NCBI RefSeq assembly: GCF_000379685.1 | Contig: NZ_KB903249.1 | Coordinates: 476,795-540,794 of the forward strand | DNA length: 64,000 bases | Direction: 5' to 3' | From: Catelliglobosispora koreensis DSM 44566 | GTDB taxonomy: Bacteria; Actinomycetota; Actinomycetes; Mycobacteriales; Micromonosporaceae | Shown: one piece after another, positions 6,984-14,180 of the stretch | Layout: every line of letters begins with the position of its first letter | Position numbering within the stretch: the stretch's first letter is position 1 | Notes under the pieces: generated by a model | Databases searched by the model: none | What the model saw: the letters and a program-made list of their open reading frames with translations, nothing else | Told to the model about the DNA's origin: nothing | Made by a program: the position numbers and the translations under genes

Positions 6984-7322
6984 ATGAATCCCATACTCCC
7001 TGCGCGCGTGCTGGTCGCGACCGCTGAAAGCCTGCCTGGGCTAACGATTACAGCCGTTCTCGGTGAGGTGATCGGGGTGGCCGCGCGCAGTCTGAGCCCC
7101 TATAGCGAAGGTCTTCGCTCGATCGCCGATGGAAGCCCTGTGGCTCCCGAACGGCGCATCGAGCTGCTAACCAGATGCCGGATGGAGGCGGTCAACCGCA
7201 TGCGCCTGGCCGCTAGCGCACGTGGCGCCAACGCGGTCATCGCGATGCGGTTTGACCACCGCCAAGTCACGGAAACATCAAACGAGATCTGCGCCTACGG
7301 GACCGCGGTCGTGGTGTCCTAA
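6984..7322 (+). CDS. YbjQ family protein
   Basis: The 112-residue cytoplasmic protein matches the YbjQ (UPF0145) family. It has a [19 protein letters not shown] strand-turn-strand, a VIGVAARS segment, and the helix [20 protein letters not shown] before a final edge strand. YbjQ proteins form a symmetric pentameric fold once called a heavy-metal-binding domain; their function is not established. The ATG at 6984 is preferred over an in-frame ATG at 6942 because GGGAGG lies seven bases upstream. The stop overlaps that of the convergent response regulator by three bases (CTAA at 7319-7322), so no terminator separates them. Confidence 0.85.
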
Positions 7323-7963
7323 GTGGACCGAAGATAGGTGAGCACGGCCAGCACACGGCGGTTGGTGTCTTCGGTCGCGGGCAGGTTGAGTTTGGCCAAG
7401 ATGTTGCCGATGTGTTTGTTGACCGCCGCTTCAGACAACACCAGGGTCCTGGCGATGGCGGCGTTGGACTGGCCTTCGGCCACCAGCGCCAGCACTTCAC
7501 GTTCGCGGGCGGACAGTGTCGTGAGTGGATTTTGGCTGCGGCGCAACAACTGGCGCACGACTTCGGGGTCGACGACGGTGTCGCCAGCCGCCACCCGCTC
7601 CAGGGACGCGATGAACTCCTCCACGTCGCCAACACGATCCTTGAGCAGATAGCCGATCCCGCGCCCGTCGCCGCTGGCGAGCAGTTCGGTGGCGTAGGAA
7701 TGCTGCACGAATTGGCTCAGTGCCACGACCGGAAGACCGGGGTGCATCTGGCGCAACGTGACCGCGGCGCGAAGGCCTTCATCGGTGAAGCCTGGTGGCA
7801 TGCGGACATCGGTCACGACCAGATCTGGCGCGTCCACGGCGACAGCCGCGATGAGGGCGCCGGCATCACCGACGGCCGCGGTCACGGTGTGGCCGAAGCG
7901 GGCGAACAGGCCGGCGAGACCCTCTCGCAGCAGAACCGAGTCCTCGGCGATCACGATGCGCAT
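7319..7963 (-). CDS. NarL/LuxR-type response regulator
   Basis: The 214-residue regulator has a receiver domain with E7-D8 and phospho-acceptor Asp52 in [15 protein letters not shown], a motif typical of the subgroup paired with Putative_sensor kinases. The C-terminal LuxR helix-turn-helix ([21 protein letters not shown]) binds DNA. Its start lies inside the end of the kinase gene, a 13-base overlap, so they are co-translated. Third and last in a probable operon behind the amine oxidase and the kinase. Confidence 0.94.
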
Positions 7964-9243
7964 GGCAGTTCAATCCTGACAACAGTTGGGCCGTTTTGCG
8001 GGCTGGAGAGGAGAAGCCGTCCACCGGCGGCGGCGATCCGGTCGGCGAGGCCCGTGATTCCTGATCCCTGGGTGGGATTCGCGCCGCCGCGGCCCTCATC
8101 GTGTACCTCCACGTGAAGCATGCCTGGCGTTTGGCGGACCGTGACGGAGGCCTGGGTGGTTCCGCTGTGTTTGGCGACGTTAGTCAGTGCCTCGGAAACG
8201 GCGAAGTAAGCGACCGTCTCCACAGCGGCAGGCAGCCTGCCCACGTTGACATCCAAAGCGACCGTGAGCGTGCTGTCATCGGCGAGTTCCTCCAAAGCCG
8301 CGCGCAGGCCAAGTTCCTTGAGCGTGCGGGGGTTGATGCCGCGAATGAGGTCGCGCAGTTCAGCCATCAGAATCTTGGCCTGCTCATGTGCTGCCTCCAG
8401 CGCGGTGTGCCCGGGTGAATCCGGGGGGACGTCCAGTTTGGCCAGACTGAGCTGCATGGTGAGGTTGACGAGCCGTTGCTGGGCGACGTCGTGCAGGTCG
8501 CGTTCGATGCGGTGGCGCTCGGCGTCGAAGGCGTCGGCAAGCCGTGTCCGTGATTGGGACACCTCGGCCAGGGCCGGGTCCGGGCACAGCAGCAAGCGTG
8601 CCAAGGCCGCCTGCACGCCGCTGAAGGCCGACGCCGCGTAGAGCAGCACGGGGATCAGCAAGACGCCGACGACCGCTAGTGCCGCCGCGGGACCGGGGGA
8701 GTCGATCTCAATTGGCCCGAAGACGATCGGCCCGCTGGACAGCGGCACGGCGAAGGGCGCGGCGATCAGCCCGAAGATGAGCAGGCCAAAAAAGCCAAGG
8801 CCGCCAAGCCAAACCGGTGGCAGGATAGCCAGCGCGAGCAGATAGGCGAAGGCACGCCACGTGTTGGGGTCCAGGTAAAGGGTGCCAATGCGGTTGGCGA
8901 CAGCCGGGCGGTCATCGGCTAGCCGCAGCCGCCAGCGTTCCCCATAGCCGAACACAACGGCGAGCGGTGGACCGAGAAACACGACGATCGCGGCGGCTGA
9001 CATCGCCAAGACGGCGGCGACGGCCAGGCTGACGTTGGCCTTGGCGGCCGCGTAGCCGAGCGAGATCGGGCACAGGAGCAGCAGCCACAGCGCGGCGGAG
9101 CTGATCCCCGTCGTGATGGCATAGGCCAGTCCGCGCCAGGGCCAGGGGGACAACAGGAACCGGCGGCTAATGACCGCACGAAGCAACGTTGAAGGCATGC
9201 GCTTGACGCTATTGCCGGCCGCCTGCGGCCACACGGAGTCCAC
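7951..9243 (-). CDS. Sensor histidine kinase with Putative_sensor domain
   Basis: The 430-residue kinase opens with a polytopic Putative_sensor module ([20 protein letters not shown], then about four helices and a conserved [13 protein letters not shown] loop). It continues with a HisKA_3 domain ([20 protein letters not shown], acceptor His) and a HATPase domain ([20 protein letters not shown]). GTG at 9243 is used; ATG at 9198 is an alternative giving a more typical short N-terminus. The start lies only nine bases beyond the stop of the upstream amine oxidase gene, which suggests one transcript for sensor, regulator and oxidase. The signal is unknown. Confidence 0.93.
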
Positions 9244-9252
9244 CTAGACACT

Positions 9253-11136
9253 TTAGGTAGAGATAGCTCTACCGTTGAGGGCACTCTCCAGCCGCTCCCA
9301 GCGCGTCACGAGGTCGGCCATCATCAGCATCATGACGTCGGGGAAGGCGTAGAGGAACGTCCGATAGCGATAGTGGTCCAGGTAGTAGACCTCAACGTCG
9401 CTCAGGGCCGTGACGGTCGTGGTGCGCGCGTTGAAGAACAGGTCATGTGCGCCGAGCAGAGCGCCGCGCGCCATGGTGACGCTGTCGTAGATGCCGCCAA
9501 AGTCGACGTTTACGTCTCCGGCTGAGATCAGGTAGATGCCGTGGGCCACATCGTCTTCACGGCAGATCGCCTCGCCTGGAGCGAAGGACAACTCGTCGAA
9601 CATTGACGCGAGGGTTTCGAGCTCGGCATCCACCAGAGGCGCGAAAAGGCTGACCCCATAAGGATCGGCGCTATCACGCAGACAGGCCACCCGTTCTTTG
9701 AGGTCACGGTCGCTGATGTGTGTCATGCGCAGGCGGGCGAACCGTTTCATGCGGTCGATATCGCGGCGCTGACGGCGTGACGTCTCGGCGCTCGGCGGGG
9801 TGTAGAGCGACGTCTCGCCGCTGATCCGCGCGGCTTCCCGTAATCCGGACTCATAAGCGCTGTGGACACAACCCCAGTGGTACCCGTTGGTGGCTTCACC
9901 GGCGAAGAAGAGCCGGTCGTCCACCGGCTCGGCGAGCGTGGTGATGTCGGCCGGTGAAGCGTTGACACCGATGCAGGTGTAGGAACCGCGAGAGAACGGG
10001 TCGGCCGACCACGCCGTGCGCGAGATATGTTGCGGGGCAGGCGCTTGCGGGCCGAAGATGTCTTGAACCACGGTGGTGGCGTATTCGTGGACCAGCGAGT
10101 CGGGCCAGCTTTCCATCGCGCGGCCCAGCGATGCGCCCAGCAGCAGCACCAGAATCGGCTTGCCGTGCGACTTCCACATGCTGATGACGACAGTGGGGTA
10201 CTGGTCGGTCTCCCGGCACAGGTAACCGAAGACGTATTGCTCCTGTGACCAGAAGGGTTCCGGGTAGTGCAGCGCGATTTTGTTGAGGGTGCCGAAGCCA
10301 AGGCGGGCGATCGCGGTTCGCTTGTCCTGCGGCAGGTCAGGCTCGAAGGTCACGGTGTTGGCTTTGAGAACGCCGAGTGGCAAGGTGACGAGCACTTTGC
10401 TGGCTTCGAACACGCCGCCGTTTGTCGTGACACGCACCAGCCCGCCGTCAGAGGAGATGTGGCTAACGACATGTCCCAGCTTGATGTCCAGGCCGCTGGC
10501 GAGCGCGTCCACGACGGACTGATAGCCGTGGTGCAGGATGCTGTCGCCGTAGCCGTAAACGAGATAGCCGTCTTCCCAGAATTTCAGCGACAGCTTGTCG
10601 GCGTCTTCAGCGACGTCGTCGCGCAGGATCATATTCAAGTGGTACCGAACGGCCTGTTCGTCTTCGGGACTGAAGGCACGGGCGGCGAAGATTTGCTGGA
10701 TCGCCTCGGCGAGCGTGATGTCAGGATGCCCGCGTTTGCGGGCGATGTCGGCGCGTTGCTCGATCTCGTGCAGCAGGCTGTCGGCTAGCTGAAGCGTCCG
10801 GTCCTTTACGGCTTTGCCCGTGATCTGGCCACCCGCGCCGAACAGGTCCAGGTTGTCGAAGCCACCGGTGTAGGAACTGTCGCCGCCGATATAGCTGTAA
10901 GGGATTTCGAGGGTCTCGACGAGGTCGGTGATCGGATTGCCATCGGTGCCGTGGATCCAGTGCGCGCCCAGGTCAACGCCATGGTGGTCGGTCCAGATGC
11001 GACCGCCGATCCGGTCGCGTGCTTCCAGGATGGTGACGGGATGGCCGCGGTCGTGCAGGGCTCTTGCCGCGGCTAGTCCCGCGATCCCGGCTCCGATGAC
11101 CAGCACACTTGGCAAATGCCCGCTTTCGTCCGTCAT
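9253..11136 (-). CDS. FAD-dependent amine oxidase fused to a cyclic-nucleotide-binding domain
   Basis: Residues 1-430 of 627 form a flavin amine oxidase of the polyamine/monoamine oxidase group. Visible are the FAD-binding Rossmann motif [15 protein letters not shown] with E37-A-R-D, the GGRIW turn, DLGAHWIHG, and a C-terminal FAD motif ([20 protein letters not shown]). After a linker of about 60 residues, residues 505-610 resemble a cNMP-binding domain ([20 protein letters not shown], then an [12 protein letters not shown] strand pair). The canonical phosphate-cassette Arg is not evident. The fusion suggests that a nucleotide or another ligand gates amine oxidation. There is no signal peptide, so it is cytoplasmic. 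First gene of a likely operon with the kinase and regulator downstream. Confidence 0.85.
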
Positions 11137-11149
11137 GTACGAATCGTAC
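11137..11149. promoter_or_regulatory. Perfect inverted repeat abutting the amine oxidase start
   Basis: GTACGA-A-TCGTAC is a perfect dyad with a one-base spacer, lying directly against the start codon of the amine oxidase gene on the minus strand. Binding there would block transcription or translation initiation. A second dyad, CACCAA-N7-TTGGTG, lies at 11195-11213 in the same divergent region. Both are operator candidates without a known regulator. Confidence 0.4.
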
Positions 11150-11194
11150 GAAGTTTGTGCGCCCGAGAACAGTCCCAGCTCGTCGCCTTGCCGA

Positions 11195-11213
11195 CACCAA
11201 ATTTGTGTTGGTG
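11195..11213. promoter_or_regulatory. CACCAA-N7-TTGGTG inverted repeat
   Basis: Perfect six-base arms separated by seven bases lie in the divergent region between the amine oxidase and the metzincin gene, ending 27 bases before the latter's ATG at 11241. The position suits an operator or a promoter-proximal site for the metzincin gene. Confidence 0.35.
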
Positions 11214-11240
11214 ATGGCGGCCGGGCGGTCTCACATAGAT

Positions 11241-14180
11241 ATGACGATGCCGCTTTACCGCCGTTACTGGCGCGGGCCAGCCCTGGCCGCCGCCGTAATA
11301 GTCTTGATAGCCGCGCAGCCGGCCGCCGTGGCCCAAGCGGCCGCGAGCCTTTCGCTGAACCCAGCGAGCGCCCGCCCAGGCGCGCAGATCACCGCCACGG
11401 GAGCGGGATTCCCCACCTTCGGCGGCAACCAGATCAAGCTCGCCATTGGACAAACGGTGCTGACAACCGTCGCCTACCAGCCACCTGGGTTCACGGCGGT
11501 CTTCAGCGCTCCCAACCTGACCCCCGGCTTCCACACCGTGACCGCTTGTGTGGCGAACAATGGCGTGTGCTCGACCGCGCCCGGAACGTCGGCTCAGGCG
11601 CGGCTGCGCATCGAGCCACCGCCTACGCAGACGACACCGCCCCGCACTCCCGTGCCGCCGCCGCCTCCGGCCACCCCGGGTGACCTGCAGATCTCCCTGG
11701 ACCCGCTGTGCTGCGATCCGCCAGCGCCGAGCAACCCGGTCAACCTGGCCGGACCGAAAAGCCCCACCCCTGGCCCGGCTATTCAGAACCCTGGGCCAGC
11801 CCCGGACTTCCCCGATCTTTACCTCCTGGGAGTTGAGGTCACCCAGAACATTCAGGACCTCAAGTCACAGATGCCGCTCGTGGCCGACCGCAAGACCTGG
11901 ATCCGCGTGCACCCGCGAGCCAACGTAGGCAACTGGGCTCCGGTCGATGGGGCGATTCTGGTCAAACGCGGTGGCGAGCAAGAGATTCTCTACCCGGTCA
12001 ACGGGCCGCTCAGCGTGGGCCTGACGACCGACCGCACCGAGACCGACTCCGCGCTCAACTTCGTGCTCGATCCGAAGTGGTATGCCGAAGGCAACCTGAG
12101 CGTCTCCGCGCTCGTGTGGGCCTATGGACCGTCCACACTGGACGATAAGGAACCCAACCCCGAGAACAACTTCATGAAGTTAAACGTCAACTTCAAGAAC
12201 GCGAAAAAGCCGAACATCCACGTCGTCCCGCTCGACGATGGGGCTGGCCCGGGACCAAATCCCAGCCTCGCGTGGACGGTCAGTTCAGCGCAGTTCGTGT
12301 CCAACAACATTGTCCGCTACCACCCGCTGGCCGACACCAACCTCACGCTCTACCCGATTCCGCTCAGCCCCGCCACGGGCGGTGGCAACGGCGGGCTCGC
12401 CGCGATCTCCGCCTGGGATCTCTCCAGCGGCACCGGGCGCACGCAGCCACTGCAGAAACTGTTCTGGTATCACCAAGTGCTGAACCTGCCAGCCGATGAG
12501 CGCCTGTTCGGCATGTTCGACAGCTCTATTCCCAGCGGTGGCTACACCGGCTGGGCCAAGTCGAGCTTGAAGTCCGCGTGGACCATGCCTTCCGGGACGA
12601 CCCCTTCGCACGAAGCTGGTCACCTCACCGGACTCGGGCATGTGGATTGTGTTGGCAGCGAGGAAGCCGGTGGGGCGCTGGACAAGACCCACCCCAACGC
12701 GGCACCCAACTGCTCCCTGGCACCGGTGAACGCCATGGGCTACTTCGGGATGACAGTCTTCGACACCCCGTTCAACATCTACAGCAACAACCCGTCGCAC
12801 CCGAAGGCGGCGTTCCCGTTGATGAGTTACGCCAGCACCAAGTGGAACGACGCCTACCACTGGTGCCTGATGCTCACCTACTACGAGGTTCCTTGCTCGC
12901 CTGAGGGCATTGGCGTGCCGGGCAAACCGATTCCGAACCCGACGCGCAACACGGTCGACTGCGATGAGTCGGTGACCGGTCCTAACGGGATGGAGCTGAA
13001 GATCTGCCTCGCCGATCCCAGCACTCCCAACTACAACGAATACCCGACGATGCCAGCCACCAAGCTGAAAATGGCGATCCCAGCCAAACCTCAGGCATGG
13101 GTGCTCGTGACCGGCGTGCTCACCAAGGACGGCGGCACCATCACACAAGCCGCTCTGGTCGACAAGCTCGCACCGTCACTGGCGGCACTGGCCGCCGAAG
13201 AAGCCACCGGAAGCGGTGCGGTAGGCAAGAACGAGATCGCCGTGCGCGACAGTGCCGGAGCGGTCATCGCCCGCGTCAAGGTTGGCGAACTCGGCTCGGC
13301 TGACATGGTGCACCTGCACGGCGACAAGGGCACCGAAACGGCGGTCGGTGAATTCGCCAAGGTGATTCCCGTCGCCGGCCAAATCAGTGCGATCAGCCTG
13401 CTCTCCGACGGAAACGTCAAGTCGACGCGCAAGGTGAGCAACGCGGCTCCCGCGATCGGCGGCCTGGCCGTGAACACGGGCGCCGACGGCACCCGCATCA
13501 CGTGGAACGTCAGCGATCCCGATGGTGACGCGGTGCGCTCGACGGTGTTGTGGAGTGCCGATGGCGTTCGCTGGCTGCCGGTCGCGCTGGACACCGACGT
13601 GACGTCTGTCCTTATTGGACCCGGCGTCGCCGTGCCGGGCGGCACGGCCGTCAAGGTGAAGGTCATCGCGAACGATGGCGTGCGCAACACCGAAACCGTG
13701 AGCACGCCTTTCGCTATGGCGGCCCGCAAGCCGCTGGTCAGTATTGGTGAGCTTCCGGATGGGTCGACGATCCCGCGCTACTTCCTGGGCGACCTGAGCG
13801 CGTTCGCGTTCGATCCCGAAGAAGGCGACCTGGCCGGATCGGCGATCTTGTGGAAGTCCAGCCTCGACGGCGACCTCGGCTCTGGCAGGACGCTGTCGTT
13901 GCGGCGGCTGTCGCTGGGCGAGCACACGATCACCGCTTCGGTGACGGACGGCTCCGGGGCCAACGGGATCGCCACGCTCAAACTGACCGTTGTTGATGGG
14001 GGTGCGGGCGCACTGCGTACCCAAGGAGCAGAACCTGATGCTGAACGGCGGCTCCTGGCCGGCGCGGCTGTTCCACCTGAGCACCTGTGGCTCTGGCTCG
14101 GGGCAGGCGGCGCCGCGGCGGTCGCGATCGCCGGCGTGGTCTGGTTCCTGATCCGCCGCAGGCGTTCCGTCATCGCCTGA
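11241..14180 (+). CDS. Secreted, C-terminally membrane-anchored metzincin-type metalloprotease
   Basis: The 979-residue protein starts with a signal peptide ([19 protein letters not shown]) followed by an IPT/TIG-like domain ([20 protein letters not shown]) and a Pro-rich linker. A catalytic region carries [11 protein letters not shown] (first His about 457), which is the metzincin zinc signature HExxHxxGxxH. A plausible Met-turn lies about 75 residues later (FPLMSYAST). Ig-like domains follow at about 740-900. The tail has one transmembrane helix and RRRR, giving an extracellular protease tethered to the membrane. ATG 11241 or 11247 gives the best signal peptide; the frame is open further upstream. 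No close named family is recognised. Confidence 0.8.

Follow-up and report, generated by a model that had tools for sequence, protein, structure and literature searches.

The locus examined here raises three questions: whether a single gene of Catelliglobosispora koreensis truly joins a flavin amine oxidase to a domain of the cyclic-nucleotide-binding (CNB) type, whether the two-component gene pair beside it belongs to the same system, and what, if anything, the CNB domain binds. We analysed a window of 64,000 nucleotides, the term used here for the whole stretch of DNA, together with homologous loci in other genomes. The features on which the analysis turns are as follows, in window coordinates.

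9253..11136, minus strand: amine oxidase–CNB fusion gene, 627 amino acids, an uninterrupted open frame with full-length homologues
9823..11085, minus strand: FAD amine oxidase domain, residues 18-438 (PF01593, E 7.1e-74; nearest solved structures LSD2, LSD1 and spermine oxidase)
10279..10281, minus strand: K286, aligned with the Lys of the LSD1 LNK motif (Lys in every one of the 40 aligned rows)
9652..9819, minus strand: linker, residues 440-495, with predicted helices at 454-473 and 476-487 (structure models; 66% mean pairwise identity)
9370..9591, minus strand: CNB domain, PF00027 match at residues 516-589, the whole domain spanning about 496-620 (Pfam and structural matches)
9406..9453, minus strand: non-canonical phosphate-binding cassette, residues 562-577 (alignment against the consensus table of PMC2246266)
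9424..9426, minus strand: R571, the equivalent of PKA Arg209 (Arg in 23 of 23 fusions)
9442..9444, minus strand: D565, which stands where PKA has Ala202 (Asp throughout the 23 fusions; Ala or Ser in 21 of 23 background domains)
7951..9243, minus strand: sensor histidine kinase, HisKA_3 and HATPase_c by Pfam, not common to the homologous loci and judged to lie outside the system
7319..7963, minus strand: LuxR-type response regulator, Response_reg and GerE by Pfam, likewise not common to the homologous loci and judged to lie outside the system

The gene product is an FAD amine oxidase of the LSD1/polyamine-oxidase type with a C-terminal CNB domain. The Amino_oxidase match covers positions 1-442 of the 443-position profile, and the cNMP_binding family (PF00027) is matched at E 6.6e-9 with 36.1 bits, above the curated cut-off of 27.5. 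Both domains lie in one stop-free frame, as the initial annotation had read it, and the profile check that it proposed for the C-terminus bears this out more widely: all 22 aligned fusion C-termini match PF00027, and none matches any other Pfam family at E ≤ 0.01. The C. koreensis genome carries one full-length copy.

The same full-length fusion occurs in 21 genomes and one further, at 67-77% identity, with both domains spanned in all 21 homologous loci. The 21 genomes represent nine genera (Allorhizocola, Catellatospora, Crossiella, Saccharothrix, Umezawaea, Hamadaea, Lentzea, Actinokineospora and Nocardia), and the fusion is present in three actinomycete families, Micromonosporaceae, Pseudonocardiaceae and Nocardiaceae. 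Among 61 genomes, that of C. koreensis included, full-length homologues were found in two (G018 at 78%, G050 at 73%). A search of 394 genomes of the class returned G050 and G417 (70%); alignment extended beyond residue 508 only in G000, G050 and G417, out of 50 matching genomes.

In a tree of the oxidase columns, obtained by a quick search and with several long branches among its 17 standalone rows, all 23 fusions fall on one side of a branch with SH-aLRT support of 100. Within the fusion clade, Nocardiaceae and Pseudonocardiaceae rows group with support of 90 and 98, and the Micromonosporaceae rows are not resolved. The clade and its family groupings fit a single old fusion that was mostly inherited vertically. 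An artefact, whether a misassembly or the chance joining of two adjacent genes, is accordingly improbable in the extreme. This caveat had been raised with the initial annotation; it is excluded by the recurrence of the full-length fusion in 21 assemblies and others, by a frame free of internal stops and by the single clade. By eye, the 18 standalone relatives all stop close to the oxidase domain, and nine of them, scanned with Pfam, gave no PF00027 match.

Searched against 397 genomes of the order, a profile of the linker and CNB domain matched nine at E ≤ 1e-20, always in an open frame of 650-859 amino acids; no short frame with such a match was found among the 397 genomes at this threshold. 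Since all nine matches lie in long frames, this form of the CNB domain was seen solely together with the enzyme in the order-wide search; the fusion is nevertheless sparse. The cassettes of these loci likewise carry the Asp and Arg, with Leu at 563 in one (L097). Because they partly repeat loci already counted (L099, L100 and probably L096), they were kept out of the 23. Among 296 genomes of the phylum, the C. koreensis copy scored 329.6 bits and the next best match 54.7, with 44 genomes, its own included, at E ≤ 1e-8. Plasmid relatives comprised nine records with partial oxidase-domain matches, none covering 80% of the query, and six short peptide patterns, scanned against viruses, gave no match.

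Mean pairwise identity is 76.4% in the oxidase, 65.9% in the linker and 73.5% in the CNB domain, and dN/dS in eight pairs ranges from 0.09 to 0.39, from 0 to 0.74 and from 0.08 to 0.22, respectively. Judged from these ratios, which are as low in the CNB domain as in the oxidase, purifying selection on the two is comparable, which speaks against a decaying appendage.

The fusion gene had also been placed nine bases upstream of a kinase-regulator pair and in an operon with it. The pair is real, and nine bases do separate the fusion TAA from the kinase GTG if that start holds. This GTG has no ribosome site evident by eye. The true start may be the next in-frame ATG, 45 bases later, for a gap of 54 bases. 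The functional link did not hold. We compared all open reading frames of at least 90 amino acids within 8 kb of the fusion, all against all at E ≤ 1e-15, across the 21 homologous loci, two of which end at contig ends, and no shared family of any size includes an open reading frame of the window. The 45 largest shared neighbour families, antisense frames included, are each confined to one genus, save one common to Allorhizocola and Catellatospora, and the immediate neighbours of the fusion vary between genomes by eye. With no window neighbour recurring, the two-component system was rejected as a partner, and the pair is best seen as a local neighbour. In Allorhizocola (L053, 9846-11291), a 481-amino-acid frame starts nine bases after the fusion stop and is a different gene from the kinase here; different genes at this distance in two Micromonosporaceae indicate that so close a spacing is by itself no sign of a functional partnership. 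On the other side of the fusion, a divergent frame of 1023 amino acids (window 11109-14180, plus strand) has a hydrophobic C-terminal stretch and an RRRR tail, both noted by eye, and no Pfam family above cut-off. It contains an 11-residue stretch that we take to be a metzincin-like zinc site. Given the overlap of its TTG start with the fusion gene, a later ATG is likelier.

The oxidase half shares its FAD amine oxidase fold (PF01593) with LSD1, LSD2, spermine oxidase and N1-acetylpolyamine oxidase. By both sequence and fold, the nearest solved structures are LSD2 (TMq 0.64, 32% identity), LSD1 and the polyamine oxidases, represented by spermine oxidase. LSD1 additionally has SWIRM and tower parts, for neither of which the fusion frame has room, and neither LSD1 nor the polyamine oxidases have the C-terminal CNB domain of the fusion. 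The RLGFG-LNK motif with its Lys is common to LSD1 and the fusion. This Lys, K286, whose LSD1 equivalent we take to be the catalytic Lys, is invariant together with W296, W376, G413, E414 and T416 in all 40 rows (23 fusions and 17 of 18 standalone relatives, L049 being omitted), a set that comprises the active-site Lys and the FAD motifs GAG and GE-T. A covalently bound FAD, as monoamine oxidase has it, was set aside as a reading: going by the MAO motif, the place of the Cys would be S385 in the fusion. Amine oxidation by the chemistry of this family yields H2O2 and aldehydes.

The sequence W60-I-H62-G aligns with the WIHG of spermine oxidase, and W60 and H62 occur in 23 of 23 fusions. The corresponding Trp80/His82 and Trp62/His64 of the animal spermine and acetylpolyamine oxidases are described as substrate-cavity residues in the available part of the source (PMC3517346). 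Standalone relatives also frequently carry both residues (W60 in 17 of 17, H62 in 13 of 17), so that neither is specific to the fusion. Within positions 1-439, 65 residues never vary across the 23 fusions yet occur in at most three of the 17 standalone relatives. Together with the retained LNK Lys and WIHG, they suggest an active site that is LSD1/PAO-like in design but remodelled. The protein may plausibly be a polyamine oxidase. Among the 65 are C388 and C423 (window 9868-9975, minus strand), present in each of the 23 fusions, absent from all 17 standalone relatives and aligned with Tyr and Thr, respectively, in LSD1, at places that we presume to be near the flavin. The animal spermine and acetylpolyamine oxidases have Ser527/Thr528 (Ser473/Thr474) near the flavin; the alignment that sets C423 opposite a Thr is that with LSD1. 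A redox link or an altered substrate pocket through the two cysteines is possible. The assigned ATG puts the start of the protein right at the dinucleotide-binding motif, and 5 of the 18 standalone relatives (L009, L040, L042, L043 and L044) have a twin-arginine-like N-terminal stretch by eye. The fusion protein is probably cytosolic, a location that would suit an internal sensor.

The C-terminal half has a CNB fold. In the PDB, its profile matches PKG and PKA regulatory chains, with a best whole-sequence E of 2.6e-15 that sums over three weak domains; the best single domains among the five alignments listed range from E 1.2e-3 to 5.9e-6, and a bacterial regulator chain of 149 residues (2pqq) is matched at E 1.2e-10. 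The first structure model has a pLDDT of 60 overall, with blocks 481-560 at 82-91 and the cassette block 561-570 at 67. A second model from a deeper alignment reaches a pLDDT of 84 and a pTM of 0.77, with residues 565-570 below 50, so that the geometry of the pocket is not readable from it. The best 50 Foldseek matches of each model are oxidases; CNB chains were found in the VIA list of the first model, where parts of residues 455-625 align with them at Z 16-17. The best matches are tied between the nucleoside-binding PKA-R of Trypanosoma cruzi (6ftf; Z 17.1, rmsd 2.4, 133 residues) and PKG (3ocp; Z 16.7, rmsd 2.2, 127 residues).

The phosphate-binding cassette departs from the canonical one. 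The PKA-family consensus, GELALIYGTPRAATVVA, has 17 letters (consensus table of PMC2246266), and the cassette here has 16, one residue short. Of the elements of the canonical cAMP/cGMP cassette FGE[LIV]AL..R (Glu200, Ala202, Arg209), the fusions keep the Arg alone. The initial annotation had considered the phosphate-cassette Arg not obvious; in fact, R571 aligns with it, and Arg occupies this place in every one of the 23 fusions. At the Glu200 place (residue 563), His occurs in 11, Ala in five, Gly in four, Ser in two and Thr in one, with Glu in none. The Ala202 place (residue 565) is Asp in 23 of 23 and never Ala or Ser. In the β2–β3 loop, the Gly169 place (residue 528, assigned from alignments) is Asp in 22 and Glu in one, instead of the Gly that marks cAMP-binding CNB domains. 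G562, D565, F567, A570, R571 and T572 are invariant in all 23. Background actinomycetal CNB domains (n = 23) have Glu in 22, Ala or Ser in 21, Arg in 21 and Gly in 20 at the same places, in a convenience sample of the profile's own matches and the window genome's domains, some near-identical, of which 23 of 24 loci were aligned (L107 not, L105 in part).

Single departures of this kind have precedents. In the consensus table of Kannan et al. (PMC2246266), Epac reads GQLAL.. and has no Glu at the same place; the accessible text of that work links Arg209 and Gly169 as an allosteric pair and describes families with the Arg but without Gly169, the MarR and AsnC types. The acid at the Ala202 place has a parallel in the trypanosomatid PKA-R, which is also among the tied best fold matches. 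In the part of the study available (PMC10959531), Glu at the Ala202 place and loss of the Arg go with nucleosides replacing cAMP. With the Arg restored and the acid kept, the protein responded to cIMP with an EC50 of 24 µM; the acid clashes with the cyclic phosphate, and its removal too was needed for nanomolar potency. An acid together with an Arg thus does not shut out cyclic nucleotides in that system, and the fusion CNB domain may weakly bind some cyclic nucleotide. The trypanosomatid protein has Glu at both 200 and 202 and no Arg (PMC10959531), whereas in the fusions the 200 place is not acidic, the 202 place is Asp and the Arg is retained; the combination that marks nucleoside-binding PKA-R is thus not found in them.

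Conservation of oxidase and CNB domain as one polypeptide makes in-built regulation the natural reading. The loss of the Glu, the Asp in place of Ala or Ser, the cassette one residue short and the acid in the β2–β3 loop together make a ligand other than canonical cAMP or cGMP likelier. We favour, by a shade better than an even chance, an amine oxidase that carries its own regulatory CNB domain, with a ligand that would more likely be altered than be canonically held cAMP or cGMP. On this reading, R571 and D565 would hold a small ligand in the CNB pocket; its binding would shift the C-helix of the CNB domain and the helices of the linker and so change oxidase activity allosterically, as in the mycobacterial Pat acetyltransferase. 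The putative ligand would probably be related to the usual ones, whether as a different cyclic nucleotide, in a different pose, or as a nucleoside or another small metabolite. The retained phosphate Arg favours an anionic, cNMP-like ligand, a point that counts against an altered ligand. The initial suggestion that the ligand may differ is therefore strengthened by the lost Glu and the Asp for Ala/Ser, though not for the reason then given, an Arg that was not obvious.

If the differing cassette still binds its usual ligand, the CNB domain would be an ordinary cAMP (or cGMP) switch, with amine oxidation under direct cAMP control. This reading draws on the unbroken conservation of R571, on the Epac precedent and the cIMP response noted above, and on three class III cyclase matches (PF00211) in the genome. 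The genome also has six PF00027 matches and one DAC cyclase match; with all these, second messengers are probably made in this bacterium. Elsewhere in it, some 1 kb separates a gene with a CNB domain from one with a class III cyclase domain (L103 and L109, C4:254644 and C4:255874). The ordinary-switch reading also has an enzymatic precedent in mycobacterial Pat (Rv0998/MSMEG_5458), which is activated by cAMP through a fused CNB domain, according to the portion of the report available (PMC5861322). The invariant Asp at the Ala202 place, where an acid collides with the cyclic phosphate in the trypanosome protein (PMC10959531), and the acid at the Gly169 place in all 23 fusions weigh the other way, and we regard an ordinary switch as unlikely.

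A CNB-like domain that binds no small ligand and serves dimerisation, docking or oxidase stability would account for the departure from the canonical cassette in a different way. D565 and R571 might pair and so close the pocket. CNB folds without ligand are familiar from the KCNH channels. For PDZ-GEF, the available text of PMC2246266 reports an unliganded crystal. The cassette is, however, among the invariant parts of the fusions, with six residues identical in 23 of 23 and the Arg kept, which is unusual for a retired pocket; a ligand-free domain seems to us unlikely.

Comparison with known systems would place the fusion among CNB-regulated enzymes. Pat is the best NCBIfam match of its CNB domain, at E 7.4e-7 and with 28.3 bits well short of the cut-off of 460, and, like the fusion, is an enzyme with a fused CNB domain, but that domain is N-terminal and the enzyme, a GNAT acetyltransferase, is unrelated. 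In second place, and at the top for two of the four C-termini compared, is the family 2B encapsulin (E 2.9e-5, 23.4 bits, likewise well short of its cut-off of 400), described in part of its source as having a putative CNB domain, internal, however, to a capsid protein (PMC8346489). Table 1 of PMC2246266 lists the Bact_Pyrredox family, a bacterial joining of CNB to a flavin-type oxidoreductase as in the fusion; unlike the fusion, it has tandem CNB domains on a pyridine nucleotide-disulphide oxidoreductase and the cassette GEMGLISGRRRGATVRA.

The C-terminus also weakly matches the CNB domain of the Pycsar TIR effectors (PycTIR, E 1.4e-5), whereas the fusion has no TIR match. In Pycsar systems, a class III cyclase partner adjoins the CNB effector. 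No class III cyclase (PF00211) was found on the contig of the window (C1), the three genome matches lying on C13, C4 and C2. With weak CNB matches only and no cyclase match on the contig, a Pycsar defence role was rejected.

In the open-access literature, we found no paper on the pairing of amine oxidase and CNB domains, nor any with the scope widened to oxidoreductases. The one paper that came up for the pair names two unrelated genes, and none of the 15 titles listed, out of 358 on CNB domains and acetyltransferases, deals with it. The fusion is a new domain combination within what is probably a known kind, the CNB-regulated enzymes, and the altered cassette is its truly interesting point. 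A bolder proposal, which we hold tentatively and think rather unlikely, is that the fusions define a new class of CNB sensor with the cassette G-x-[HY]-D-[LMI]-F-x-x-A-R-T, re-tooled for a non-canonical ligand. Candidates for that ligand would include purine nucleosides, non-standard cyclic nucleotides and, held by the added acid, amines or aldehydes of the enzyme's own pathway; amine oxidation would then be gated by feedback within one polypeptide. Such re-tooling may be likened to that of trypanosome PKA, reached by another route. The 23 aligned sequences pinpoint residues 563, 565, 571 and 528 as the exact sites for a test. The fusion ties amine breakdown to a sensor domain within one protein, kept over three actinomycete families, and, if the altered cassette does bind a new ligand, it would join the few CNB domains whose ligand is neither cAMP nor cGMP.
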